In this document: positions 2,320 to 15,479 of the stretch, piece after piece
How positions within the stretch are numbered: the stretch's first letter is position 1
Layout: each line of letters starts with the position of its first letter
NCBI GenBank assembly: GCA_938045315.1
Contig: CALINM010000133.1
Span: forward strand, 1-19,986
DNA length: 19,986 nucleotides
Source: an uncultured bacterium
Lineage (GTDB): Bacteria; CALINM01
Direction: 5' to 3'
Made by a program: the position numbers and the translations under genes
The notes under the pieces: model-generated
What the model saw: the letters and a program-made list of their open reading frames with translations, nothing else
What the model was told of the DNA's origin: nothing
Database searches by the model: none

Positions 2320-3838
2320 TTAAACCTTAAAATTGTCAAGTTCCTCCAAGAGGGTTTTCATGCTATTTTCGAGGGAGTTTATAGATTCTGTCATTTTTTC
2401 TGATAGCACAAAGGTATCTTTTGATATGTTGTTTATGGAATCAAAGATAATTACCATTTTCTGAGTATTTTCTTTTTGCACAGAGGTTATTTTTGCAATT
2501 TCAGCAGCTTTTTCTGCCACATTTACTATTAATTCCTGTATCTGATTATTGCCAGCCCTTTGTTCCTCCGTCGCAGTCTTTAATTGCTCACTCAAATTTT
2601 TTATTAATTCCCCAGTTTCTATTATATTTTTACTGCCCACAGTCTGTGCTTTTATTGCCTTTGAAATTGTTTCTATTTGAGTTTTGATTACATTTACAGT
2701 ATCAGTAAATTGCTTTATGGCATTTGCTTGTTCATCCGTTGCTTTTCTTATAACCTTTGTTTTTTCTGCTGACAATTCAGAACTTTCTTTGATTTTTAAT
2801 AGTGCTTCATTAACCATATTAACTAATTTTACCCCCTCATCAACCTTTTCGAGACCTATCTTTACCATTTTTACAGAGGCTATCGTATCTTCTTTGACAG
2901 ATTCAACAATTTCCACTATTTCCCTCGTTGACTTAGCGATTTTTTTGCTAGATCTTTTATATTATCCGCTACTATACTAAAACCCTTTCCGCTATCTCCT
3001 GATTGGGCTGACAAAATAGCAGCATTTAACATTAACATGCCAGTCTGCTCAGCAATTTCGTCTATAACACTAATAATTTTACCTATATTCTCAGATCTTT
3101 TTCGCAGTCTTTCTATGGTTTGGGACAATGATAATACAGAATCTCATATATGTTCCATTCCTTTTATTGCCTTTATTGACGCATTTAGTCCCTTCTCTTC
3201 GGCCTCCTTTGCCACCTTTTCAGCTATAGACGCTGACTCTTGAGTAGAATGTTGCACTTCTATCAATGACATATTTATTTCAGTAATGCTTGATGCAGCA
3301 TCTTCCACTGAACTTGTTAGTTTATCTATACTAATTGATATATCAGAAATTGATTTAACTAATCCTTCCACTGATGATGCAGACTCTTTTGCAGAATTAC
3401 TAAAATGCCCCGCATTTTCCGCAATTTGGTTCATAGACCGGGTTAACTCAACAACTGCCGATGAAGCAGTTTCTGAAGAATCTACCAGTTTATCAATTTC
3501 GAAAAAATATTGTTTGCACCCTTATCAATATTTTCTGCCATATGTTTTGCTTCCGTTATTGAAACTTGCTGTTCTTTGGACCCTTTTTCTACGTTTTTAG
3601 AAGAATAAACAACACTTTCAAGGATACCAAATGCATTTTTCGCTAATTCCTTTACATCTACTACAATAGCCTTTAGTCCACTAATTAGGTTATTTAGATT
3701 TTTTGCAAGTAATCCAATCTCATCTTCATTACTTAATTCAATTTTTACTGTCCAATCGCCTTTAGAAACCTTATCTGTTTCATTTTTAAAGATGAAAGAT
3801 TGGTTAATTTTCGCAAAAGATGTCTTTTCAACTACTTT
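2320..3838 (-). pseudogene. Degraded methyl-accepting chemotaxis protein (HAMP plus signalling domain only)
   Basis: Reading three frames in turn on the minus strand gives one continuous chemoreceptor C-terminus. It starts with a HAMP domain (…TDKVSKGDWTVKI…LSNEDEIGLL…, about 3680-3800), then a long methyl-accepting coiled coil, the hairpin tip IDEIAEQTGMLMLNAAI and the return helix, ending LEELDNFKV at 2320. Lesions are: no sensor or transmembrane part, because the frame is closed near 3866 inside the upstream gene; a one-base frameshift near 3500 (…NNIFS | EIDKLV…); an in-frame TGA at 3144-3146 (…GMEHI*DSVLSLSQT…); and a one-base deletion in an A7 run at 2940-2946 (…LAKK | IAKSTREI…). The receptor is therefore not functional as written. 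The tip motif differs from the usual 'EAARAGE' form (it has 'LSAQSGD'), which also occurs in some intact subfamilies. Its family identity is secure, but the ligand is unknown. Confidence 0.88.
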
Positions 3839-5474
3839 TATTCTTTGAAAGGAAACTACTTTTTTTTAAAAACCAGGGCATTATCATAATTATTGATACT
3901 AACAATACACCGACTATCAGGGGGGTAAAATTTCTCTTTGTTATAAGTTCAAAAATACTGCTACCAAAATATACATATGCAATACAGGCGGGTAGCATAG
4001 AGAAGAATGAAGCAACAAGATAAGGCAAAAATTTTATGGGTGTAATGCCAAAAAGATAATTTAAAACAGGAAATGGGAATATGGGCACAATCCTGGTAAA
4101 GGCTACAACTTTCCAACCATTCTTTTCTACAAGACTTTTTAGCCTCTCCCACTTTCTTATACCAAACATTCTTTTTACACTATCATGAAATATGTACCTG
4201 GAGAGTAAAAAGGGAAGAGAACTTCCCATAGTGGCACCTGTAATTGCAAAAACTACCCCCCAAAAGGGGCCCCATAGCATTCCTGATACAATTGTCAAAA
4301 TAAGGCTGGGGAAAAAAATAGAAGGTCCAATAGTATAAATAAGCAAATATATTAGAGGTGCCAAAAATTTTGATGTTTTTACAAAGTTAACCAGTTTATC
4401 TATGGTTATTAACTGGTTTTTATGCAAATTTTGCACAATAAAGATACCAATCATTATCAGTAAAAACAGAAAAATTTTTGTAAAATTTATCTTTGTTCTC
4501 AATGATATGTAGAAGCGATTAAACCATTTGTCTTTTTCTTCCAGGGGCTTATTAATATTTACACCACTAATCACTTCAAAAATATGTTTTGCCTCAATAT
4601 TATACTTCATAAATCTATTTTTGCAACCCATGCATGAAGTTAGAACCCTTCGACTTTTCGCTAAATTCTTTATTTTCTCAAGAAACTCTTTAGACACATC
4701 TTTATCTAACTTACTGGCAGAGCCACCAAGCCCACAACAGTATGGATTTTTTATGCTTTCCATGTTCTTATAAACAAAATTTCTCTCCATGTAATTTATT
4801 ATCTCTCTATTTTTAAAGTTAGGACAGGGATGATGGAGAATAAAATCATTTATGGGTTCTTTTATGTCCTCTTTACTTAATAATTGAGAAACATGAATTA
4901 ATTCAAAGTCATTCATATATTTCCTGAAAATCTTATAACAATTCCCACAGGCAAAAACAATTTTTGATGTCCCGGTTCTTTTAAGTTTTTCTTTCAGATT
5001 TTTTAAAAAGTTTGATAAAGTAGATACGTCACCATTCTGAAATAAGGGATCACCACAACAGTGAATCGTTATACCTATCTTTTCATTCATTTTTACTTCT
5101 AAGCACTTTTTAATTCCATATACAATCTTACTCCCCATTGATAACAGGGAACAACCGGGGAATAAAATTGTCTCTCTATAATCAACATGAGATATAGGAA
5201 ATCTACTCATGATATTTGTAAAATTTCTTGCTGATTGAATGGCCTGTATTACTTCCTTTGAAAGGCTTCCTTCTTTTATCATCAATGTTTTTAAGCTATA
5301 AAGCGCCCTCGAAGGTTCAAGATCTAAGGGACATAATATATCGCATGCTCCACAATTTGTGCAGATAAATACAGACTGATCTTTTTTATTATAAATATCC
5401 CTCGGATATCCATATTTACTGAGATAGGGACAAATAAGGCAATTACCACAAAAGCTACAATCCTGTATTTTCAA
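3828..5474 (-). CDS. Fusion of CCG-type Fe-S oxidoreductase and TVP38/TMEM64 (DedA-like) membrane domain
   Basis: The 548-residue protein has two unlike halves. Residues 1-300 resemble GlcF/HdrB-type iron-sulfur proteins: Cys cluster C6-C9-C12-C15 followed by Pro, a second CxxCxxCxxxCP at 38-49, then CCG-type motifs (Cys108, CC139-140 with GDP, C176/C179, C217, CC246-247 with GLGG, C281/C284). Residues 330-535 hold about five to six hydrophobic segments with the TVP38/TMEM64 motifs (GPSIFFPS, 'GMLWGPFWG', a GATMGSSLPF stretch, FTRIVPIFPFPVLNY). The Fe-S half would face the cytoplasm, tethered to the membrane. It is the last gene of the ArsS-type operon and probably supplies or removes electrons or moves a product, but this is inferred. 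The start must be TTG 5474, since a TAG lies directly upstream in frame; the TTG overlaps the previous TGA stop. Its 3' end abuts the decayed chemoreceptor. Confidence 0.85.
   Translation of the reverse strand: MKIQDCSFCGNCLICPYLSKYGYPRDIYNKKDQSVFICTNCGACDILCPLDLEPSRALYSLKTLMIKEGSLSKEVIQAIQSARNFTNIMSRFPISHVDYRETILFPGCSLLSMGSKIVYGIKKCLEVKMNEKIGITIHCCGDPLFQNGDVSTLSNFLKNLKEKLKRTGTSKIVFACGNCYKIFRKYMNDFELIHVSQLLSKEDIKEPINDFILHHPCPNFKNREIINYMERNFVYKNMESIKNPYCCGLGGSASKLDKDVSKEFLEKIKNLAKSRRVLTSCMGCKNRFMKYNIEAKHIFEVISGVNINKPLEEKDKWFNRFYISLRTKINFTKIFLFLLIMIGIFIVQNLHKNQLITIDKLVNFVKTSKFLAPLIYLLIYTIGPSIFFPSLILTIVSGMLWGPFWGVVFAITGATMGSSLPFLLSRYIFHDSVKRMFGIRKWERLKSLVEKNGWKVVAFTRIVPIFPFPVLNYLFGITPIKFLPYLVASFFSMLPACIAYVYFGSSIFELITKRNFTPLIVGVLLVSIIMIMPWFLKKSSFLSKNKSS
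3830..3863. repeat. 10-bp direct repeat at gene/pseudogene junction
   Basis: AACTACTTTT occurs at 3830-3839 and again at 3854-3863. The first copy covers the last codons of the Fe-S/TVP38 fusion gene at the point where the chemoreceptor remnant begins. Such short repeats can mark deletion junctions, but a 10-mer of low complexity may be chance. Confidence 0.35.
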
Positions 5475-7267
5475 CTACTTATACTCCCGAAGCATGATGA
5501 ACCCTTCTTTGCTGTACAGCCATAGCAATGATTATCAACTCTTACTATTATGCCCTTCAACTCATCAAAAGATTTAATATGAAAAATATCTCCTCTTTGA
5601 AGCCCAAGAGCGTTATTAAAATCGCAATCATATATCTTTCCGTCATAACCAATGTTGATTAAGCTTTTACACATAAGGTTATCGATATTTGTGATGTTAA
5701 AATTGAGATGTAACAGGGACATATAATTATCCAATAAACCAGCATTTTTAAGATACTTTTCGAACCTTCCCACAGGTATGTTAGTTAAAATGGCAAGGTT
5801 GTTAAACTTAATCCCAAAAGCATCTTGAAGCATTCTTCTATAAATTTCGCCAACCCCATCAGAGGGTAGCTCTAAATTGACAGGATTGTACACTATAGTG
5901 AGCTCTTTTTCTTTACCAAAACCAAACTCATTTAGTTTTTTAAGCATATCAATTGATTTTTTAAAAACTCCTTCTCCTCTCTGAGCATCAAGCTCCTTTT
6001 CATCTAAAGAAGGTAAAGAGGCAAAAAGTGAAACACCATTATCTACTAACAGCTTTAAAAGGTCTTTTTTATTTTCTAAAGCTGTTAAATTTGTCCGAAA
6101 TATAATTTTGGGTACAATTTTTTTTACAGTGGACACAAAAAAGCCTATGTGCGTATTTAATTCAGGAGCTCCCCCTGTTATGTCAACAACATCTACCTCT
6201 GAGTTCTGAAGAAGTGCTATAATTCTTTCCATAACATCTTTTCTCATAACTTTATCATTCTTTGGACCCGCCGATATATGACAGTGTTTACAAATTTGAT
6301 TACAAAGGTCACCTACATTTACCTGTACTATACTCACCTTTTCTTTTTTTATTTTTTGCCCCAGTCTATCGATTTTATCTTTAAAACTAATGAATATAGT
6401 TTCTTTACCACAACAATTAACATACTTTACCTTTTTCTCACCCTTATATGCTGCAATAGTTAGGGAATAAAAATTAATACCATCAACAATGCGCCAGGGA
6501 TTTTCATCTTTTTTAATTACTTCAATATTTTTAAAGCCAGCCTCCCTAAAAGCATTAATAAACATATCTTCTCTCATTGCTCCTGAAATGCATCCAGACC
6601 ATAAATCAGGATCTTCCTTCATATACTGGGGAACAGCCCTATGGGACACAATATCACTGATAATTGCCCTGCCATCTTTTTTAAGCACCCTATAAATTTC
6701 ACTGAAAAGCTTTTTTTTCTCCTCATCCCTTACAAGATTAAGCACACAATTAGAAACGACAACATCTATGCTATTATCGCCAATCATAGTTTCGTATTTC
6801 TCAAGTTCCTTTATCTTAAACTCAAGATTTAAATAGTCATCTATACTTTTAATGGCGTTTTCTTTTATAAAAGCATCTAATTTCTCCAGATCCAGTTTTA
6901 AATTTTGAATTCTTCCCCTTCTAAATTCAAAATTTTTGTATCCCAGCTTTTTCGCGACTTCATCCTCATACTTTCTTGCAAGGTTTAGCATTTCACTGTT
7001 CATGTCTACACCAATAACCCTGCCCCTTTCGCCAACCACCTGAGAAATTATATAAACAAGTTTACCGCCCCCTGACCCCAAGTCAAGAACTGTCTCACCT
7101 TCAAGAATATATTTAGAAGGATCTCCACAACCGTAATCTTTTTCTAAAATTTCTTTAGGTATTATTTCAAGATATTTAGGGTCGTAAGATATAGGACAAC
7201 AAAGAGTTCCTTCCCAATCCTTAGATGCTCTTTTGTATCTTTCATATACCATCCTTTCTTGATCCAC
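5471..7267 (-). CDS. arsS: ArsM-like methyltransferase fused to ArsS-type radical SAM/Cys-rich protein
   Basis: The 598-residue protein joins two arsenic-associated families. Residues 1-280 are an S-adenosylmethionine methyltransferase like arsenite methyltransferase ArsM: CC23-24, DYGCGDP (Cys47), SAM motif VLDLGSGGG (60-68), GVDM (86-89), SNCVLNL (Cys174) and SGCISGA (Cys226). These match the conserved cysteines that bind As(III). Residues 310-598 are a radical SAM domain with C322-x3-C326-x2-C329 and ITGGAPE (363-369), plus a Cys-rich tail (Cys548, HCYGC 580-584, GSSC 589-592) as in the ArsS/TIGR04167 family, some members of which are selenoproteins. Known biochemistry: ArsM methylates arsenite; ArsS is thought to transfer the 5'-deoxyadenosyl group of SAM to methylated arsenic on the way to arsenosugars. 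The GTG start has AGGAG 8 bases upstream. A stop-start overlap couples it to the next gene. The fusion suggests channelling. Substrate is inferred from family. Confidence 0.88.
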   Translation of the reverse strand: MDQERMVYERYKRASKDWEGTLCCPISYDPKYLEIIPKEILEKDYGCGDPSKYILEGETVLDLGSGGGKLVYIISQVVGERGRVIGVDMNSEMLNLARKYEDEVAKKLGYKNFEFRRGRIQNLKLDLEKLDAFIKENAIKSIDDYLNLEFKIKELEKYETMIGDNSIDVVVSNCVLNLVRDEEKKKLFSEIYRVLKKDGRAIISDIVSHRAVPQYMKEDPDLWSGCISGAMREDMFINAFREAGFKNIEVIKKDENPWRIVDGINFYSLTIAAYKGEKKVKYVNCCGKETIFISFKDKIDRLGQKIKKEKVSIVQVNVGDLCNQICKHCHISAGPKNDKVMRKDVMERIIALLQNSEVDVVDITGGAPELNTHIGFFVSTVKKIVPKIIFRTNLTALENKKDLLKLLVDNGVSLFASLPSLDEKELDAQRGEGVFKKSIDMLKKLNEFGFGKEKELTIVYNPVNLELPSDGVGEIYRRMLQDAFGIKFNNLAILTNIPVGRFEKYLKNAGLLDNYMSLLHLNFNITNIDNLMCKSLINIGYDGKIYDCDFNNALGLQRGDIFHIKSFDELKGIIVRVDNHCYGCTAKKGSSCFGSISS

Positions 7268-7278
7268 TTTCTTATCTC

Positions 7279-7950
7279 CTATTTGTAAAACTTGATTAAC
7301 GTTTCAGGCTTAAAACCTAAAAAGAATAGAAGAACGATTATAACATTTTTCATGCTATGTAGTATGGGATACATTATACTTCCTCTCTCAAGCTTCCTTG
7401 CTGAAACTATAATATTTTTTTTAACTTTCTTTATTTTACCCCTTTTTCTTAACCTTATGATAAAATCAAGATCTTCTAAAAATGGATAGTTTTTAAAACT
7501 ACCTATCTTACTGCATAACACTTTTCTAAAAAAAATGCCCTGATCCCCATAGGGTAAATGGAAAATCATTGATCTCAAATTCGCAAAAAATTCTACAAGT
7601 TTTACTGCTGTCCTTTCAGAATCAAATTTTAGCCTAAAAAAGCCCCCAACTTCATCTTCCTTTAACGAAAAATCATCTATAACAACATCTTCAGCCAATA
7701 AAGTATCTGCATGCATAACAAGTATTGTATCTCCCCTGCTTATATCAATCCCTTTGCTAATCTGAGCTCCTCTGCTTTTTGTAGTTTTGAGTATTTTACA
7801 GTTGTAAGTTTCTGCTATCTTTATTGTATTATCTTGACTCCCCCCATCAACAATAATTATCTCAAAGGGATTTAGTTTACTAAGTCTAATAAGTGTTTTT
7901 TCAAGATAACAGCCTTCATTTATTACGGGAATTACAACTGACAACTTCAA
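7279..7950 (-). CDS. GT2 glycosyltransferase, TIGR04283-like (rSAM/selenodomain-associated, arsenosugar type)
   Basis: This 223-residue family-2 glycosyltransferase has the landmarks of the TIGR04283 group: SVVIPVINE at the N-terminus, the nucleotide-binding IIIVDGGSQDNT (31-42), SRGAQ (59-63), the metal-binding HADT (80-83), NLRS (124-127), GDQGIFFR (135-142), the acidic LEDLDF (158-163) and SARKLERGS (183-191). One hydrophobic segment near 203-212 could associate with membrane. The family is named for its co-occurrence with the ArsS-type radical SAM protein and is annotated as an arsenosugar biosynthesis glycosyltransferase. Here it is directly upstream of the ArsM-ArsS fusion, with an 11 bp gap. 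The sugar donor and acceptor are unknown. The start is TTG 7950: an in-frame TGA lies nine bases upstream, and the TTG overlaps the TGA of the rhodanese gene. Confidence 0.88.
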   Translation of the reverse strand: MKLSVVIPVINEGCYLEKTLIRLSKLNPFEIIIVDGGSQDNTIKIAETYNCKILKTTKSRGAQISKGIDISRGDTILVMHADTLLAEDVVIDDFSLKEDEVGGFFRLKFDSERTAVKLVEFFANLRSMIFHLPYGDQGIFFRKVLCSKIGSFKNYPFLEDLDFIIRLRKRGKIKKVKKNIIVSARKLERGSIMYPILHSMKNVIIVLLFFLGFKPETLIKFYK

Positions 7951-8360
7951 TTTATCTCACAAAGCCCCGTATGGGGGAACCCCTGAATTCCCCCTTCCAA
8001 AATGAATAGTCTTTTTTCACTAATGCCCATGCTCTTAATATAATCGTATGTATTTTTTGCAGCTCCAGCACCCCTTGGACAAATAATCACAATGTCTAAC
8101 TCATCTTTTTTTATTTTTTCTATAAGGGCATCTAACTTTTTTCTATCTTCTTCTGTTTTAACTGGATAGGCCCCCGTTCCAAAAGAACCTTTAATATGTT
8201 TTTTCTGAAAATCTTCTGGTTTTTGAACATCTAAAATATGCATTTTTTTTCCGCTCTCAACCCATTTTTTAAACTCGTTAGCATTAATAAAATTATAGTT
8301 TTGGGCTTCTACAGACCTTGCAAGAACAACAAAAAATAAAAATAAAAGTACTTTCTTAAT
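7947..8360 (-). CDS. Exported single-domain rhodanese-like protein with apparent ATT start
   Basis: The protein is 137 residues if translation begins at ATT 8360. The N-terminus (Met/Ile-KKVLLFLFFVVLARSVEA, cleavage likely after Ala19) is a clear Sec signal peptide, followed by the rhodanese start 'INANEFKKWVESGKK', the core HILDVQ, the substrate-region AYPVKT and the active-site loop ICPRGAGAA with catalytic Cys94. Rhodaneses carry persulfide sulfur; single-domain exported forms serve periplasmic sulfur or metalloid chemistry. A perfect AGGAGG (8372-8367) lies six bases before the ATT. An in-frame TAA lies just before the AGGAGG, and no ATG, GTG or TTG occurs between that TAA and the ATT. 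The first internal ATG (8243, residue 40) would remove the signal peptide and the first strand and has no clear ribosome site. The gene sits 10 bp after the YdjY-domain gene and overlaps the glycosyltransferase start. Confidence 0.83.
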   Translation of the reverse strand: MKKVLLFLFFVVLARSVEAQNYNFINANEFKKWVESGKKMHILDVQKPEDFQKKHIKGSFGTGAYPVKTEEDRKKLDALIEKIKKDELDIVIICPRGAGAAKNTYDYIKSMGISEKRLFILEGGIQGFPHTGLCEIN

Positions 8361-8370
8361 ATTTTTCCTC

Positions 8371-9015
8371 CTACTTTAGTTTATAAATTAAAATTATGGG
8401 ATAACCATCTTTAGTAGGTAAAATTTCTTTATTACCCTTAAAGTGTGAATTAGGTAATATGAACCTTTGTATAGAATTAGTCATAGGATAAACAGCATTA
8501 CTTGTAATAGAAATCCAGCAACTTTCCAAGCATGTAATACAACCTGTTTTTTGTTCTTCTGAAGCCCTTCTGTTGCCCCCAAACCTTATTTTAAACCCCT
8601 TACCTGTAGAATCCTCGAATATTTGTTTCAGAGAATACTCTTTACCATCAACTAAAGCTGTTACTTCAAGTTCATCTCCTTCTACATATTTGCCCACACT
8701 ATCTTTATTCAAGTTGTTGCCCGGTATTGCACCTATTTTAATAAGGGCATCATAAAAATCAAGTTGGTTAACATATGCCTTTAGAATTGCCCTATCTCCA
8801 AATCTACCATCTTTAAAAACTACTCCCCAGTGAACAGTGGGCTGATAAAGATGCATCACATTAAGCTCAGTATAAATAAGAACTTTCTTATCCTTCTCAT
8901 CGATAAGAAGGGGTGTTTCTTTATTGGGTAAAAAATCCTTCTTCAATGAATATGCTTCAAATAAGGTAAATAACATAGCTCCCATCACAATACAGAGCTG
9001 AATTAACCTTTTCAT
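8371..9015 (-). CDS. YdjY-domain exported protein with CxxCxxxC motif
   Basis: This 214-residue protein is first in the ArsS-type operon. A signal peptide or anchor covers residues 1-22. The body matches the YdjY domain pattern: TPLLIDEKDKKVLIYTELN, YQPTVHWGVVFKDGRFGD, a 'YDALIKIGAIPGNNL' segment and, near the C-terminus, TGCITCLESCWISITSNAV with Cys159, Cys162 and Cys166. Proteins with this domain are found in anaerobes but I know of no established reaction. The cysteine motif suggests Fe-S binding or thiol/metalloid chemistry outside the cytoplasm. It has ATG start 9015 with no Shine-Dalgarno sequence; a -10-like hexamer six bases upstream suggests a leaderless message. Its stop codon lies in the ribosome-binding region of the rhodanese gene, so the two exported proteins are probably made together. 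Confidence 0.78.
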   Translation of the reverse strand: MKRLIQLCIVMGAMLFTLFEAYSLKKDFLPNKETPLLIDEKDKKVLIYTELNVMHLYQPTVHWGVVFKDGRFGDRAILKAYVNQLDFYDALIKIGAIPGNNLNKDSVGKYVEGDELEVTALVDGKEYSLKQIFEDSTGKGFKIRFGGNRRASEEQKTGCITCLESCWISITSNAVYPMTNSIQRFILPNSHFKGNKEILPTKDGYPIILIYKLK

Positions 9016-9021
9016 GTTTTT

Positions 9022-9050
9022 ATTTTACTGATTTGGAAAACTATCGTCTA
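9022..9050 (-). promoter_or_regulatory. Candidate promoter of the ArsS-type operon (leaderless)
   Basis: On the minus strand TAGACG (9050-9045, four of six -35 matches) is followed after 17 bp by TAAAAT (9027-9022, five of six -10 matches). The ATG begins six bases beyond the -10, where the transcript would be expected to start. No Shine-Dalgarno sequence precedes the ATG, which agrees with a leaderless message. AT-richness makes chance matches likely. Confidence 0.4.
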
Positions 9051-9080
9051 ATTGGTAATATAAATTGATCAAACTAATTT

Positions 9081-9097
9081 AATAGAAACTATCTATT
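9081..9097. promoter_or_regulatory. Inverted repeat in divergent intergenic spacer, possible operator
   Basis: AATAGA-AACTA-TCTATT is a 6-5-6 inverted repeat, extending imperfectly to TTTAATAGA/TCTATTTAAA. It lies mid-way between two divergent genes; an 8-bp palindrome TTGATCAA (9065-9072) is nearby. A shared regulator could bind here, but in such AT-rich DNA both could be chance. Confidence 0.25.
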
Positions 9098-9142
9098 TAA
9101 AATATTTCAATCTTTTGATAAATCATTGAAATCACTTTTTTA

Positions 9143-9172
9143 TATACAAAAATCAATTTTACAAATTATAAT
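9143..9172 (+). promoter_or_regulatory. Candidate promoter of the B12/radical SAM-kinase operon (leaderless)
   Basis: A perfect TATAAT (9167-9172) is preceded after 18 bp by TATACA (9143-9148, four of six). The GTG start at 9179 is six bases beyond the -10, at the expected transcription start, and no Shine-Dalgarno sequence is visible. This mirrors the arrangement on the other side of the spacer. Confidence 0.45.
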
Positions 9173-9178
9173 AGTTTT

Positions 9179-10420
9179 GTGAAAATCAAGGTTTTTTTTG
9201 TAAAAAAAAGAGATAATTTTTATAGTTTGGCCACTTTATATGCTGCTATTGAAAAAATTGAAAATATTTATCCAGAAATAATTCCCTATCCCTGCTTGTT
9301 AGAATTAAACATAAAAAATATGCCCTATGACAAAATCCTTTTTTGTTTTTCCTATAATACAATTTCCTTTTACAACGAACTTGAAGAGTCAGAAAGATAT
9401 TTAAAAAAATTCAAATACGATAACACTTTGTTTATAGCTGGAGGTCCTCATCCCTCTGCAAAACCTGAAGAAGTTATAAACATAGGTTTTGATACAGTAA
9501 TAGTTGGGGAGGGGGAGCAAGCTTTAATAGATTTAATTGAAATGTTAAAACAAAATATATTACCTCCAAAGATTATCAGAAAATCCATTGATAATTTGGA
9601 TAAATTCTCATCATTCCCCTCGAAATCTTCCCTATATAAACCCATAGAAATTACTCGCGGTTGCCCGTACGGTTGCTATTTTTGTCAAACTAGCTATCTT
9701 TTTTCAAAAAAATTGAAACATAGAAGCATTGAAGATATTAAAAATCATGTGAGTTTAGCATTCGAAAGAGGGATCAGAGATTTTAGATTTATAACACCAA
9801 ACGCATTAGCTTATTTAAGTAATACAAATAAAACTCACTTAACTGCTATAAAAGATTTACTTTCTTCCATTAGAAGCATTATTAAAGACAAAGGAAGAAT
9901 TTTTTTTGGCACTTTTCCTTCAGAAATAAGACCTGAATTTGTAAATGAAGAAGTAATAAAAATTTTAAAAGATTATGTAGATAATAAAACACTTCACATA
10001 GGTCTTCAATCGGGTAGTGAAGCAATGCTTAAAAAGGCTCACAGAGGACACACTGTTAAAGATGTAATTAATGCAATGGATGTTTCACTAAAAGGAGGAT
10101 TTAAAGTAGATATTGACATTATTTTAGGCATGCCGAATGAAACTCATGAGGATATGCAAAAAACAATAAACTTTATAAAAAATTACTCTAACGAAAAAGT
10201 CAATTTTCATGTTCATTACTATATACCATTACCCGGTACTCCATGGGCTAATTTTCCACCTACACCATTGCCAGAAAATGTAAAGAAAGAATTAGAAATA
10301 CTGGTAGGAAAAGGGAGGTTATGGGGGGCATGGAAACGCCAGATGGAGTTTTTTAGACTCATTGAAACAAAAAAAAATTTAAATAATAAAACTTTAGATT
10401 TAAAATTAACCACATGTTAG
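9179..10420 (+). CDS. B12-binding-domain/radical SAM protein, MJ_1487-like (TIGR04013 type)
   Basis: This 413-residue protein has a degenerate cobalamin-binding-like N-terminal domain ending in FIAGGPHPSAKPEE (85-98) and VIVGEGEQAL (107-116). A radical SAM core follows, with C162-x3-C166-x2-C169 in the motif ITRGCPYGCYFCQTS. Other core elements are HIGLQSGSE, DIDIILGMPNET and the late YYIPLPGTPW. The layout and motifs fit the MJ_1487 group of cobalamin-type radical SAM proteins, whose reaction is not established as far as I know. A DXHH cobalamin ligand is not evident, so B12 may not bind by the classic base-off mode. The start is GTG 9179, directly after a TATAAT box, with no ribosome binding site. 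The gene overlaps the downstream kinase start by 7 bp (ATGTTAG), implying coupled expression with a signalling protein. Confidence 0.82.
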   Translation: MKIKVFFVKKRDNFYSLATLYAAIEKIENIYPEIIPYPCLLELNIKNMPYDKILFCFSYNTISFYNELEESERYLKKFKYDNTLFIAGGPHPSAKPEEVINIGFDTVIVGEGEQALIDLIEMLKQNILPPKIIRKSIDNLDKFSSFPSKSSLYKPIEITRGCPYGCYFCQTSYLFSKKLKHRSIEDIKNHVSLAFERGIRDFRFITPNALAYLSNTNKTHLTAIKDLLSSIRSIIKDKGRIFFGTFPSEIRPEFVNEEVIKILKDYVDNKTLHIGLQSGSEAMLKKAHRGHTVKDVINAMDVSLKGGFKVDIDIILGMPNETHEDMQKTINFIKNYSNEKVNFHVHYYIPLPGTPWANFPPTPLPENVKKELEILVGKGRLWGAWKRQMEFFRLIETKKNLNNKTLDLKLTTC

Positions 10421-12423
10421 AAAAAACTAAAGTTAAAAAACCAATTTTACAAATTTCTTTATACATTCTTTGTATAGCAATGTTTGCTCAATTTTCTTTA
10501 AGTCTTGTTCTTAATATTGTAGGCTACTATTTAGATATGAAAGAGACCCTTCGAAAAACTGGTGAATCCAAAATCGATAAAATTAACCATTTTATTGAAA
10601 GAATTGTATCCTTAGGAGTACCTATTAGTGAGATACCTCAGCTAAATCAAGAATTAGAAAAAGAAGTAAAGGACGATATTTTTCAATTCTTTACTGTTAT
10701 TGATGAAAATAATAATATTTTATACCATAGCGATCCCATAGTAGTGGGCACAAAATTTCCAGTGGAACAAAGCAAATTGGTGTCAAAAAAAGAACTTAAA
10801 GCAGAAATATTCCCTTACAATGACGTTTTTTTAATCGCTAAACCAATTTATGATTATAAAAAAACAAAAATAGGATTTATTATAGCAGCATATTCGCCAG
10901 TAGTAATTTATAAAAAAGTACTCTGGGTTTTTCTAAGAGCTTCGTTAGCTTTCTTCATAACAGGCATGTTAGGCATCGCTCTAATTGTTTATTTTTATAG
11001 ACGTAAGATACAAAAGCCATTAACAAAACTTCTTGAAGGGCTTGAGAAATTTAAAGCAGGACAATTTGAAGAATTAGAAACAATAGATGAAGATTCTGAA
11101 ATTGGTGCAGTTATAACATCTATTAACAGCATGGTTACAACTCTTAAAAATACCTTTATTGAGAAAGAAACATTACTGAATAAACTAAAAAATGAAGAAG
11201 AGAAACTAAGAAAGATAATAGAAAAAACTGAGATGGGTATCGCAGTAATAAAAAATGATAAATTTGTTTTTGTAAACCCCGGATTTATGAAAATATTAAA
11301 GATTGACTACGCCTATCATTTGATTGGAAAAAGTATATATGATTTCTTTTCACCCAGTGAAAGATTTTATTATCGCGAGGCATTCAATGAAGTTTTGGAA
11401 AAAGGTGAAAGAAAAACTTTTGATAGTGTCAAAATGTATGATGCTAATAATAACGAAATATATTGCACTCTTGAAGCTTCCCTTCTTGAAACTTCTGAAT
11501 GGGGCAAAAAACTTTTGAACTTGACTTTCCAGAATATAACCGAAAAAGTATTTTATATGGAAGAGTTGAAAGCAAAAAATAAAGAATTGGAACAAATGAT
11601 CGAGAAGTATAAATCAACACAACTGGCTTTACAAGTTGCCAATGAAAAGTTAGAAAATGCACTTAGTGCTGTTGAAAAAGCTAATGAAGAATTGAAAAAG
11701 ATTGATAATATGAAAGATATTTTCTTCTCTACAATTACTCATGAACTTAAAACACCTCTTTCTTTAATTCATGGATATATCAGTATTTTAAAATCTGATA
11801 ATAATATAAAGTCATCCAGCATGACTATGGATATTGTAAATGCTATTGAAAGAGGTGCAAAGAGGCTCACAAGTTTAACAGAAGAGATAATGGAACTTAT
11901 GAAAATTCGTTCAGGCAAGTTGGTTCTTAATCCCACCCTTACTTACTTAAAGTTTATTTTAACACCCCTTATAAGTGAGTTAGAGCCTCTTTTAAAATCA
12001 AAAAACTTAAAAGTTGAACTTGTTAATATAGAACAAATGCCCCTATTAAACTTAGACATAAAAAAGTTTGAAACTGCATTAAGAAATATTCTCGTAAATA
12101 GTGTTAAGTATTGCAAAGAAAATGGAAAAATAACAATCAGTAGCTCCATTGAAGCGGAAGGAGAAAATAAGTATGTTAAAATTGCTATAAACGATGAAGG
12201 ATGCGGGATTTCGTCATTTAACATTGAAAAAATTTTTACTGAATTTTTCACTCTTCCGCCACCTCAAGCTGGTAAAGAGTTACCAATCAGAGGAACTGGG
12301 TTGGGGTTATCAATTGCAAAAGGTATTATTGAAGCCCATGGTGGAAAAATATGGGCAGAAAGCCCTGGATATGATCCTGAAAAAAATCCTGGTACTACTT
12401 TTTATGTAAAAATACCTATTTAA
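10414..12423 (+). CDS. Membrane sensor histidine kinase with extracytoplasmic, HAMP and PAS domains
   Basis: The 669-residue protein has TM1 at about 10-38, an extracytoplasmic sensor region (40-165, with the dCache/sCache-like pattern FTVIDENNNILYHSDP) and TM2 at about 168-195. A HAMP linker follows (200-250), then a PAS domain (265-375, MGIAVIKNDKFVFVNPGF), a coiled coil (383-432) and HisKA with phospho-acceptor His443 (STITHELKTPLS). The HATPase domain carries N-box Asn562, DEGCG (594-598) and GTGLGLS (627-633). It should autophosphorylate His443 on sensing an external or PAS-borne signal. No response regulator is encoded in the window, so it is an orphan here. ATG 10414 lies within the end of the radical SAM gene, and the kinase's stop overlaps the end of convergent selA by 8 bp. 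The ligand is unknown. Confidence 0.93.
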   Translation: MLEKTKVKKPILQISLYILCIAMFAQFSLSLVLNIVGYYLDMKETLRKTGESKIDKINHFIERIVSLGVPISEIPQLNQELEKEVKDDIFQFFTVIDENNNILYHSDPIVVGTKFPVEQSKLVSKKELKAEIFPYNDVFLIAKPIYDYKKTKIGFIIAAYSPVVIYKKVLWVFLRASLAFFITGMLGIALIVYFYRRKIQKPLTKLLEGLEKFKAGQFEELETIDEDSEIGAVITSINSMVTTLKNTFIEKETLLNKLKNEEEKLRKIIEKTEMGIAVIKNDKFVFVNPGFMKILKIDYAYHLIGKSIYDFFSPSERFYYREAFNEVLEKGERKTFDSVKMYDANNNEIYCTLEASLLETSEWGKKLLNLTFQNITEKVFYMEELKAKNKELEQMIEKYKSTQLALQVANEKLENALSAVEKANEELKKIDNMKDIFFSTITHELKTPLSLIHGYISILKSDNNIKSSSMTMDIVNAIERGAKRLTSLTEEIMELMKIRSGKLVLNPTLTYLKFILTPLISELEPLLKSKNLKVELVNIEQMPLLNLDIKKFETALRNILVNSVKYCKENGKITISSSIEAEGENKYVKIAINDEGCGISSFNIEKIFTEFFTLPPPQAGKELPIRGTGLGLSIAKGIIEAHGGKIWAESPGYDPEKNPGTTFYVKIPI

Positions 12424-13792
12424 GAGTAAAAATACTAGTTAAAATTTCTCCAAGAATTGGTATTTCTTCATCTTTAACAGTTCTTAGATCAATTAAACAA
12501 GCGTTTTCCTTTCTTCTTACAACCACAGGTGGTGTTGTATTTAAAAGCTTTTTTGCCAGATCTTCTTCTGTCATTGCAGGATGGTTAATTTTTAAAACCC
12601 ATGTTTTTAATTCTACATCAGGAAGGCTACCACCTCCTGGCGTTGAATAATCAGTTGTTAATTTTAAAAACTGCCTATCAATTTTATTTTTTAATATTTT
12701 TAAAAGCTTCCTTCCCCTTTTTTCTATTTTATCAATAGGTTCAAGCAACATATTTAGAGCAGGAGAATACTCATATAAACCCAGTGTTAAATAATAAAAT
12801 AATCTTTCAAGATAATAAATGGTAAATTTATCAGACCTCAAGGCTCTATAAAGGGGGTTTTTCTTCATTTTTTCTATGAGATCTTTTTTCCCTACAATTA
12901 TTCCTGCCTGTATTCCACCTAAGAGTTTATCTCCACTAAAAGATACGATATCAACCCCCTTACTTATTTCTTCATTTATTATTGGTTCCTCTTTACTAAT
13001 ATTTTTTACAGCATAAATTGCACCACTTCCTATATCAAAATAAAAGGGTATGTTATATTTTTTTGACAACTCCACTAATTTTAATGATGGTACCTCTTCT
13101 GTAAAACCCTTTAATACAAAATTACTGCGATGTACTTTTAATATTAGCCCCGTATCATTATTTATAGCTTTTTCATAATCAATAACTTTAGTCTTATTTG
13201 TAGTTCCTACTTCTTTAAGTATTGCACCTGAAGCTCTCATAATTTCTGGCACTCTAAAAGAACCACCTATTTCAACAAGCTCTCCCCTTGAAACTATAAC
13301 TTCTTTGCCTTCTGATATTGTATTTAAAATTAGCAAGCATGCTGATGCATTATTGTTAACAACCAGGATATCCTCTGCATCAAATAAATCAGCCTTTAAA
13401 TGTTTTAGTCGTGAGCCCCTTTTACCTTCCTTTAGTTCGAACTCTAAATCAGAATAATTACAAATTAATGGTTTTATTTCATCAACTATTCTCTCTGAAA
13501 GGGGAGCTCTTCCCAGATTGGTATGAATTATTGTACCTGTAGCATTAATAACCCTACTTATTTTTGAGGAAGTTATTTTTTTTATGAAAATTTTTAAATT
13601 TTTCTCAAAGTTTTCCTCTGAAAACAGATCATCTTTTTCATTAAATGTCCCATTTCTAATAGATGATCTTTGTTCATTTAGCATAAGGTTGATTGCTTTT
13701 TTTACAATTTCTTTAGGATAATCAAAAACCTTGACCTCTTCTCTTTCTAATAGGACATCAACTTTGGGCAGGTAATCTCTAAATTTGTTCAT
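12416..13792 (-). CDS. selA: L-seryl-tRNA(Sec) selenium transferase SelA
   Basis: This 458-residue PLP enzyme converts seryl-tRNA(Sec) to selenocysteinyl-tRNA(Sec) using selenophosphate. Motifs are typical: RVINATGTIIHTNLGRAPLS (80-99), YSDLEFELKEGKRGSR (113-128), NNNASACLLIL (146-156), SRGELVEIGGSFRVPEIM (168-185), VGTTNKT (195-201), HRSNF (221-225), FDIGSGA (252-258) and the PLP-binding Lys289 in SFSGDKLLGG. Length is normal for bacterial SelA. It shows that the organism probably makes selenoproteins. selB, selD and tRNA-Sec are not in the window. ATG 13792 overlaps the upstream stop (ATGA), making it the last gene of the dprA-to-selA run. Its stop overlaps the convergent histidine kinase by 8 bp, leaving no room for a conventional terminator between them. 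Confidence 0.96.
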   Translation of the reverse strand: MNKFRDYLPKVDVLLEREEVKVFDYPKEIVKKAINLMLNEQRSSIRNGTFNEKDDLFSEENFEKNLKIFIKKITSSKISRVINATGTIIHTNLGRAPLSERIVDEIKPLICNYSDLEFELKEGKRGSRLKHLKADLFDAEDILVVNNNASACLLILNTISEGKEVIVSRGELVEIGGSFRVPEIMRASGAILKEVGTTNKTKVIDYEKAINNDTGLILKVHRSNFVLKGFTEEVPSLKLVELSKKYNIPFYFDIGSGAIYAVKNISKEEPIINEEISKGVDIVSFSGDKLLGGIQAGIIVGKKDLIEKMKKNPLYRALRSDKFTIYYLERLFYYLTLGLYEYSPALNMLLEPIDKIEKRGRKLLKILKNKIDRQFLKLTTDYSTPGGGSLPDVELKTWVLKINHPAMTEEDLAKKLLNTTPPVVVRRKENACLIDLRTVKDEEIPILGEILTSIFTLK

Positions 13793-14958
13793 ATTTCAAT
13801 TTTTTCCATTTGATTTAAAACATATTCTCTAATCACATTCTCTTCAGGCACTTTTTCTATAATTTCTCCATTATCAATATAAACTTTAAGTAAACTAAAA
13901 GTTTGACCACCACAATGACAGTTTTTTTTAGTTCCCAGAGGTACAATAAAATCTCTTTGGCAATCATTACATCTCAATATATCCTTTCTGCCCGAATGTT
14001 TGCCCCGCTTAGCGCAAAACTTACCTTCCACTTCCACAATATCCATTGAAAAATCTATTGTAGAAGCAGAACTTATTGCTGTTCCAACCCCATAACCATC
14101 GCAATATTCATTAAGATTTTTTATTTTATCCTCATCTATACCACCCGATACCATTATTTTAACCCTTTCAAAGCCCCTAATATTTAGCTCCCATCTCACC
14201 TCATCAAGCAACCTCCTGAAGTCTCCCCTTCGAGAGCCCGGTGTATCTAACCTTATACCAAAAAGTTTATCTCTTAAAGCACTTGCTACCCTTATAGCCT
14301 CAAACTTTTCATCTAAAAATGTGTCAATAAGTACAATTCTTGGTACTTCTTCAGGAATTACTGCATCAAAAGCTTTTGCTGCCTCAACAGTGTCTCCTAA
14401 AATAAGTATCAACGCATGTGGCATAGTCCCTGTAGGATTTATACCAAGAAATTTTGAAGAAATGATTGTTGACACACCATCACATCCTCCTATATAAGCA
14501 CTTCTCTCAATCATAGGTGCTATACAGGGATGCATCCTCCTTGTCCCAAAACTAATAACAGGTCTTCCCTGAGCAGCTTTTTTACATCTTGCTGATTTTG
14601 TAGCAATTCCAGAAGACTGACATATAAACCCTAACATGGCAGTTTCATATACACCAAATTCTAAATAATCACCTACTATTTCCATAACAGGCATCCATGT
14701 TTTGAATATTGTTCCTTCAGGTAAAGCTCTTAACGTTACTTTCTTGCCCTTTAAAAGACTTATAACTTCTTTAAGGCCCGTAAAAACTCCAAAATCATTT
14801 CCCTCAGGTAATCCTTTAACAATAAACTCCGCTGAAACTACTTTATGCAGATTGTAGGCTTCAAGAACCTGTCTTGTTCTTTCAAAATAAATATCTGTTA
14901 CAAGACCATCTTTTATTTCCTTTTCAGTGGCAATATAGAAATCTCTATCGTCTTTCAT
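13789..14958 (-). CDS. pncB: Nicotinate phosphoribosyltransferase, short archaeal/thermophile-type with C-terminal zinc-ribbon-like segment
   Basis: This 389-residue enzyme joins nicotinate to PRPP to give nicotinate mononucleotide for NAD. Supporting motifs are the substrate-handling SFGTRRMHP (136-144), GGCDGVSTI (157-165), NPTGTMPHAL (174-183), DTFLDEKFEA (212-221), GIRLDTPGSRRGD (234-246), MVSGGIDEDKI (269-279) and GVGTAISS (290-297). The short form carries a C-terminal domain with Cys330-x2-Cys333 and Cys347-x-Cys349 (CNDC…CHCGG), probably a zinc site seen in related family members. It starts at ATG 14958, overlapping the nicotinamidase stop, so the deamidase and transferase form a two-step nicotinamide salvage unit. 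selA follows with a 4 bp overlap. Confidence 0.93.
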   Translation of the reverse strand: MKDDRDFYIATEKEIKDGLVTDIYFERTRQVLEAYNLHKVVSAEFIVKGLPEGNDFGVFTGLKEVISLLKGKKVTLRALPEGTIFKTWMPVMEIVGDYLEFGVYETAMLGFICQSSGIATKSARCKKAAQGRPVISFGTRRMHPCIAPMIERSAYIGGCDGVSTIISSKFLGINPTGTMPHALILILGDTVEAAKAFDAVIPEEVPRIVLIDTFLDEKFEAIRVASALRDKLFGIRLDTPGSRRGDFRRLLDEVRWELNIRGFERVKIMVSGGIDEDKIKNLNEYCDGYGVGTAISSASTIDFSMDIVEVEGKFCAKRGKHSGRKDILRCNDCQRDFIVPLGTKKNCHCGGQTFSLLKVYIDNGEIIEKVPEENVIREYVLNQMEKIEI

Positions 14959-15479
14959 ATTAGATTTACCCCCAGCACACCCTTCATATCCTTAAACACA
15001 TAATCCTTATCTTTCTCATCTAAGGCTGAAACACCATCTTTAATTACATGAACTCTAAATCCCCTGAGTGTTGCTTCCATAGCGCAAAAATATACACATA
15101 TGTTAATCACACATCCCATCAAATATAAATCTGTTATTTCTAACTTTATCAAAAGTTCTTCAAGTTCTGTTTTGTAAAAGCTTGAATAAGTTGTCTTTTT
15201 TACGATAAATTCTTTACCCCTATTAATATCAGGCTTTAATTCTTCCACAATTTCAGAACCCCAACTACCAGATATTGCATGAGGTGGCCATTTTCTAAAT
15301 TCTTCATCATTGATACTGTGATTATCACATATGTAAATTATATAATCGTCGTTTTTTCTAAAATTTTCGATCCACTCCCTTATGACAGGAATAATACTTT
15401 CATTTTCAGGTACAAAAAGAGTACCCTCTTTTTTAGAAAAATCATTTAACATATCAATTACTAGAAGTGCTTTTTTCAT
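14955..15479 (-). CDS. pncA: Nicotinamidase-type isochorismatase-family hydrolase
   Basis: The 174-residue cysteine hydrolase has the catalytic triad Asp9 (LLVIDMLNDF), Lys95 (KTTYSSF, aligning with the K-x-x-Y-S-x-F motif of PncA) and Cys127 (INICVYFCAMEA). It also has metal-ligand candidates Asp52/His54 (ICDNHS) and His67 (WPPH), the last two being typical of nicotinamidases rather than general isochorismatases. It would turn nicotinamide into nicotinate, feeding the phosphoribosyltransferase encoded next. The usual cis-peptide region reads MGCVINIC, with an extra Cys123 close to the active site, which is a small oddity. ATG 15479 overlaps the stop of the preceding 58-residue gene (TAATG), and the stop overlaps pncB (ATGA). 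Confidence 0.86.
   Translation of the reverse strand: MKKALLVIDMLNDFSKKEGTLFVPENESIIPVIREWIENFRKNDDYIIYICDNHSINDEEFRKWPPHAISGSWGSEIVEELKPDINRGKEFIVKKTTYSSFYKTELEELLIKLEITDLYLMGCVINICVYFCAMEATLRGFRVHVIKDGVSALDEKDKDYVFKDMKGVLGVNLI

Follow-up and report, generated by a model that had tools for sequence, protein, structure and literature searches.

We analysed a 19,986-nucleotide stretch (hereafter the window; G000:C133 in our comparison) of contig CALINM010000133.1 from an uncultured bacterium of the lineage CALINM01 (assembly GCA_938045315.1), a 1.86 Mb draft genome whose phylum was represented by three genomes in the comparison. The window carries a five-gene operon built around a fusion of an ArsM-type methyltransferase with the radical S-adenosylmethionine (SAM) enzyme ArsS, and this operon probably encodes an arsenosugar-type organoarsenical pathway coupled to the membrane. 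Known catalytic families occur here in a new fusion, together with a new and statistically supported set of partners: a YdjY-domain protein, an exported rhodanese and a protein that joins an iron-sulfur (Fe-S) CCG domain to a TVP38 membrane domain. A first-pass annotation, made from the sequence alone, had described five same-strand genes with overlaps or gaps of at most 11 bp, one of them the ArsM-ArsS fusion. Open reading frames (ORFs) and profile searches placed all five where it had put them, at 3828-9015 on the minus strand, co-directional and near-contiguous, and profile matches bore out the identity of each gene (Table 1). In gene order the spacing is a 10-nt gap, a 4-nt overlap, an 11-nt gap and a 4-nt overlap.

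Table 1. Features of the operon and its upstream region in the window
Feature	Position	Strand	Evidence
YdjY-domain protein, 214 aa, N-terminal signal/anchor	8371..9015	-	NF040466, 98.7 bits (cut-off 50); alignment
Exported single-domain rhodanese, signal peptide, active-site Cys in the loop CPRGAGA	~7947..8360	-	PF00581, 45.7 bits (gathering score 22.2); frame; homologues in L003, L004 and L007
TIGR04283 arsenosugar-associated glycosyltransferase with GT2 fold; its TTG start overlaps the stop of the rhodanese gene	7279..7950	-	TIGR04283, 191.1 bits (cut-off 182)
ArsM-ArsS fusion, 598 aa	5471..7267	-	TIGR04167, 333.6 bits (cut-off 300), residues 306-596; arsenite-methyltransferase matches, residues ~21-276
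Fe-S/CCG (heterodisulfide-reductase-like) domain + VTT/TVP38 (YdjX-like) membrane domain, one chain of 548 aa	3828..5474	-	PF02754, 27.6 bits (20.6); PF09335, 90.7 bits (33.9)
AT-rich intergenic region between the operon and a divergent TIGR04013 radical SAM gene; presumed promoter	9016..9178	.	

The two-domain ArsM-type/ArsS fusion is real. Its SAM-dependent methyltransferase domain (residues ~1-276) is followed by a flexible linker (~277-295) and the radical SAM ArsS domain (~296-598). The ArsS part matched 66 of the 75 near-invariant positions of its family, and both the CX3CX2C motif at C322/C326/C329 and the cysteines C533, C548, C581, C584 and C592 aligned with the TIGR04167 family. In the methyltransferase, C47 and C174 align directly with C72 and C174 of the solved CmArsM (4fr0), and C226 stands in the position of the third ligand (C224). 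The set C23/C24/C47/C174/C226 is common to separate ArsM proteins from other phyla, and the solved structures nearest to this domain are arsenic methyltransferases. The domain probably works like ArsM; because it scored under the curated cut-offs, we call it ArsM-type and do not file it as an ArsM member. A pair of cysteines in the linker, C285-C286, was found only in the window and in its relative L003. The AlphaFold model of the fusion (pLDDT 89.6) has two confident domains; since pTM was 0.62 and the linker is disordered at 282-288, it does not fix the mutual orientation of the domains, and hence channelling.

The arrangement recurs in other genomes. Locus L003 belongs to the same genus. 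All five genes recur there, flanked on either side by the same neighbours and with 63% identity of the fusion, so the arrangement is not an assembly accident. L004 reads rhodanese-glycosyltransferase-ArsM up to the contig end, and L007, from another phylum (Thermodesulfovibrionales), reads rhodanese-glycosyltransferase-ArsS-CCG/TVP38. In each of the three genomes from the phylum, the operon includes a TIGR04283 glycosyltransferase that scores over the cut-off. ArsS and ArsM also share one ORF at five Omnitrophota-type loci (L019, L023, L034, L066 and L070); the domain order, read for L019, is ArsS-ArsM, opposite to that of the window. In the tree these five and the unfused L038 form a separate, supported clade on a distant ArsS branch, which indicates that the two domains were joined at least twice. 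Two independent fusions argue in turn that the domains act in sequence.

To survey the neighbourhoods, genes within 4 kb of 71 ArsS anchors were compared with those at 4-8 kb (survey lengths 482 and 368 kb), and the glycosyltransferase families were assigned by profile and direct comparison. VTT/TVP38 genes were counted 28 times within 4 kb, all 28 on the same strand as ArsS, versus once at 4-8 kb. The corresponding counts were 31 versus 3 for TIGR04283-like genes, 40 versus 0 for TIGR04282, 21 versus 1 for ArsM and 6 versus 0 for CCG. TIGR04169, frequent though not universal, lay near ArsS in 32 of the 71 loci. In several phyla, genes for TVP38, CCG and rhodanese group with ArsS, and TVP38 lies directly 3' of ArsS in the cyanobacterial loci L043, L046 and L061.

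The first-pass annotation had proposed a search for co-occurrence of the five families across genomes, with a result no better than chance counting against it. Among 291 Clostridia genomes, NF040466 (YdjY) was present in 6, TIGR04167 (ArsS) in 7 and TIGR04283 in 11. TIGR04283 was found in 6 of 6 genomes with YdjY (hypergeometric p 6e-10, or 2e-8 without the centre genome), ArsS in 5 of 6 with YdjY (7e-9, or 3e-7) and TIGR04283 in 7 of 7 with ArsS (1e-11, or 3e-10), kinship being ignored in all three tests. This co-occurrence is far beyond chance, and because in several of these genomes the genes lie apart, linkage alone did not make the signal. Together with the clustering in other phyla, it upholds the proposed link of YdjY, rhodanese and CCG/TVP38 to the arsenosugar families. 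YdjY was found in 6 of 44 genomes bearing ArsS and is therefore an optional partner. That the neighbours are chance or transient companions of an isolated ArsM-ArsS enzyme might be argued from the few loci where YdjY and rhodanese adjoin ArsS. Against this stand the same gene order in L003 and the partial order in L004 and L007, the genome-wide co-occurrence in Clostridia even where the genes are unlinked, and the fusion of partners to each other; such an explanation was already disfavoured, and we give it hardly any credence.

The YdjY protein, aligned with its E. coli namesake and with clostridial relatives, shows an invariant TGCxxCLxSC (C159, C162, C166) and His62. Its fold was also sought by structure: the AlphaFold model, built from only 4 sequences (pLDDT 73.6), gave no Foldseek match below E 1.4, and the best VIA-align hit (Z 6.1, to MTH639) was uninformative. 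For the rhodanese, the mechanically called ORF (7947-8243) is too short and begins within the gene. The form with a signal peptide starts from an ATT codon (8358-8360), 6 nt after AGGAGG and 10 nt past the ydjY stop, and its signal peptide has a homologue in L004, whose gene starts with GTG. From its position ATT is the probable start; a sequencing error is also possible. In the CCG-TVP38 protein, Fer4_10 scored 19.4 bits, under the cut-off of 25.5, and the Cys motif is visible in the alignment; the best E. coli match is YdjX.

Related fusions occur elsewhere. The TVP38 protein beside ArsS in L040 has a C-terminal part that reads as a rhodanese domain, and L020 has a TIGR04282-CCG fusion. Fusion to pyridine-nucleotide disulfide oxidoreductases is frequent among COG0398 members (PMC10127716) and is also present in L013. 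TVP38/DedA proteins are proposed transporters (PMC7818093); the literature searched, largely without subscription papers, held no paper tying TVP38 to arsenosugar genes. An APH/choline-kinase-type phosphotransferase gene recurs beside TIGR04282/TIGR04283 in L122, L123, L124, L133, L134 and L135 (profile-checked in L122 and L124); the kinase could phosphorylate arsenoribose before nucleotide activation. A PiT-type phosphate permease gene, judged from sequence only, adjoins ArsM, ArsS or TIGR04283 in L005, L006 and L023, which represent three lineages, as if it imported arsenate or phosphate for the pathway.

A biosynthetic role had first been argued from the lack of arsR, arsB and arsC nearby. 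The window indeed contains none of the three, but the statement does not hold genome-wide: contig C48 carries genes for an arsP-like permease, a small thioredoxin-fold-like protein, arsR, a low-molecular-weight-type arsC, acr3 and DUF2703. With a complete ars locus elsewhere in the genome, the argument from missing genes is weak. The C48 locus and the separate window operon suggest instead a division of labour, in which efflux resistance is covered by C48, in agreement with a metabolic role of its own for the window operon. The C48 locus can also be taken to mean that the window operon serves detoxification only, methylated or adenosylated arsenic being a less toxic form expelled by the TVP38/CCG and exported proteins, with no dedicated sugar product. 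An acr3 gene within 4 kb of ArsS in five loci (four of them from closely related Dyadobacter) and the putative transporter function of the TVP38 family (PMC7818093) are in line with that view. The TIGR04283 glycosyltransferase inside the operon in each genome of the phylum and the separation of the operon from the ars locus are not, and we consider detoxification alone unlikely.

For the arsenosugar-type pathway that we prefer, the literature supplies the first steps: ArsM and ArsS start arsenosugar synthesis, SsArsS working with SsArsM (PMC8552651), and ArsS adenosylates arsenic in that synthesis (PMC12159101). In the window operon, the ArsM-type domain would bind As(III) by C47, C174 and C226 and use SAM to methylate it, yielding dimethylarsenite. 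Within the same polypeptide, the ArsS domain would then add a 5'-deoxyadenosyl radical to the arsenic, giving dimethylarsinoyl-deoxyadenosine, so that the toxic intermediate would not have to be released. Adenine would be lost through an enzyme encoded outside the operon, and the TIGR04283 glycosyltransferase may act on the arsenoriboside, probably together with an enzyme of the TIGR04282 type whose gene lies elsewhere. We infer the roles of the other three proteins as follows. CCG-TVP38, a disulfide-reductase-like Fe-S domain coupled to a DedA-type membrane domain, would reduce and move the product or a carrier as a redox-coupled membrane step. Outside the membrane, the arsenical would be processed or thiolated by the two exported proteins, rhodanese and YdjY (with its three invariant Cys and its His); they may hold arsenic in the trivalent state or produce thio-arsenicals.

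Several observations weigh against this pathway or limit it. The window ArsS falls in a deep clade with L003, L007, L016 and L027, far from cyanobacterial ArsS, and in these five proteins the near-invariant Tyr of SLPxY is replaced by L/F/T/I/L, respectively; for this reason the substrate of this ArsS could differ from that of the cyanobacterial enzyme. The ArsM-type domain stayed under every curated cut-off (NF008823, 198/263 bits; NF040538, 300.6/500; NF038099, 110.7/400). In the same genome TIGR04282 is represented by a contig-edge fragment matching profile positions 4-145 of 189 with 106.4 bits, below the cut-off, and TIGR04169 (AhpD-like) had no match in any of the three phylum genomes. 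Among the relatives, L003 alone has YdjY at 4 kb or less from ArsS, and only L003 and L007 have rhodanese so close; YdjY of L020 is slightly beyond 4 kb, and outside these loci the links of both families to ArsS are looser or genome-wide only. The 291 Clostridia are not phylogenetically independent, the neighbourhoods in G215, G236 and G330 being very similar, and 4 of the 11 with TIGR04283 have no ArsS, which means that the membrane part may act without it. We infer the product and every chemical step in this organism. The arsenosugar or related metalloid pathway of the first-pass annotation thus stands as regards its families and partners, but arsenosugar as the product is less secure, given the divergent ArsS clade and the sub-threshold ArsM domain.

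The same divergence may mean that ArsS transfers another group, or to another acceptor, and that the product is an organoarsenical other than an arsenosugar, much as arsinothricin synthesis differs from arsenosugar synthesis. The window ArsS has lost the Gly at 587 as well as the SLPxY Tyr, the best curated ArsM-type match of the methyltransferase domain (below cut-off) is the arsinothricin ArsM, and YdjY and rhodanese are new partners. TIGR04167 nevertheless scored over its cut-off, all family cysteines are kept and TIGR04283 is present, which leaves a different organoarsenical a rather unlikely product.

Selenium or another metalloid might also replace arsenic as substrate. The ArsS family was first named rSAM_SeCys, and some relatives of the window protein are probable selenoproteins: L016 (2049-2051), L027 (8922-8924) and L057 (8892-8894) have an in-frame TGA at the position of C592, where the window has Cys. 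TIGR04167 is listed with a GxxU selenoprotein form (PMC13188914), which these codons fit. A selA gene lies in the window, rhodanese and Fe-S partners suit chalcogen chemistry, and PMC10127716 cites a report on DedA and selenite. Selenocysteine in relatives, however, concerns the make-up of the protein and not its substrate, the fused methyltransferase keeps all arsenite-binding cysteines and has arsenic methyltransferases as its nearest solved proteins, and relatives cluster with acr3 and arsR. We regard a substrate other than arsenic as quite improbable.

A further new observation is that in Clostridia most families of the E. coli ydjXYZ-ynjABCDE operon are clustered with arsenosugar glycosyltransferases. 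The E. coli order is ydjX-ydjY-ydjZ-ynjA-ynjB-ynjC-ynjD-ynjE. L112 has YdjX/Y/Z-like genes, YnjB/C/C/D, TIGR04282/04283 and CCG; L114 (Catonella) has YnjB, TIGR04282/04283, CCG, YdjX, YnjE, YdjY and YdjZ; and L124 has YnjB/C/C/D, YnjE, TIGR04283, TIGR04282, YdjZ, YdjX, the APH-type kinase and CCG, followed directly by arsR-acr3. These three clostridial loci bridge the window and E. coli operon types. In L123, the set stands beside an ArsR-type regulator. The clusters of TIGR04282/TIGR04283, CCG and TVP38 in L112, L122, L123 and L124 come from genomes in which no ArsS was detected, and they include genes for ABC transporters of the YnjBCD type or for rhodanese of the YnjE type.

The E. coli operon and ynjE are directly activated by FNR, that is, anaerobically (PMC3688515). 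In the literature searched, again largely without subscription papers, we found only passing mentions of ydjXYZ and no assigned function for the eight-gene operon. Because the clostridial counterparts sit with arsenosugar glycosyltransferases and CCG, and because of the FNR activation, an arsenic-related role for the E. coli operon is a concrete hypothesis. Tentatively, and with less than even confidence, we suggest that the FNR-activated operon may be the membrane half, without ArsS, of an organoarsenical pathway that is ancient and anaerobic, of which the window operon would be a compact, complete version with its two C-As bond-forming enzymes fused. YdjY was found in 0 of 369 sampled Gammaproteobacteria genomes, so this sample is unfit for statistics on the E. 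coli link.

Upstream of the operon, an Rfam search of the intergenic DNA found no riboswitch or other family, and no operator was identified. The density of promoter-motif matches was not above that in shuffled sequence, and a mild fold signal was present (z -2.5). The divergent gene at 9179-10420 encodes a TIGR04013 B12-binding radical SAM protein (408.5 bits); it adjoins the operon in L003 too and is a possible functional neighbour. A chemotaxis-receptor-like coiled-coil gene at 2320-3434, between the operon and a fur-like gene, is seemingly broken, with fragments in separate frames, and L003 is without it. Further away, at 12416-15479, a co-directional block kept in L003 joins selA to nicotinate-phosphoribosyltransferase-like and nicotinamidase-like isochorismatase genes, so that selenium and NAD salvage genes stand side by side.

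If our reading is right, the fusion offers a frame, both genetic and mechanistic, for how toxic methylarsenite could be channelled from one C-As bond-forming enzyme to the other. YdjY, CCG-TVP38 and the exported rhodanese, all conserved families, would gain a function and the eight-gene E. coli operon a directly testable role, and this reading suggests that arsenosugar-type chemistry is widespread in anaerobes, beyond algae and cyanobacteria.

Of the NCBIfam "arsenosugar biosynthesis" set (TIGR04167, TIGR04283, TIGR04282 and TIGR04169), the window operon has the first two over cut-off, the own genome has the third only as the distant fragment described above, and the fourth is absent. The set itself is without the YdjY, rhodanese and CCG-TVP38 that the operon has. 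With E. coli ydjXYZ-ynjABCDE the window operon shares YdjY, the YdjX-like TVP38 domain and an exported rhodanese. It is not a full operon of that type, having only YdjY, the YdjX-like domain and a different rhodanese; YnjE is larger and has no phmmer-detectable similarity to the window protein. Unlike the window, E. coli, which served as a control genome, has neither ArsS nor a close TIGR04283. The arsinothricin cluster arsQML makes an organoarsenical with a radical SAM enzyme and ArsM, like the window operon (PMC8552651), whereas its ArsL transfers a 3-amino-3-carboxypropyl group and the cluster is without the fusion, the glycosyltransferase, YdjY and CCG-TVP38. In the SsArsM/SsArsS pathway of Synechocystis, the same two catalytic families presumably act in sequence on arsenic (PMC8552651, PMC12159101), and in L043, L046 and L061 the TVP38 gene after ArsS recalls the TVP38 partner of the window. 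Compared with these cyanobacterial systems, the window operon has both enzymes in one chain, an ArsS of a distant clade, and YdjY, exported rhodanese and CCG in addition.

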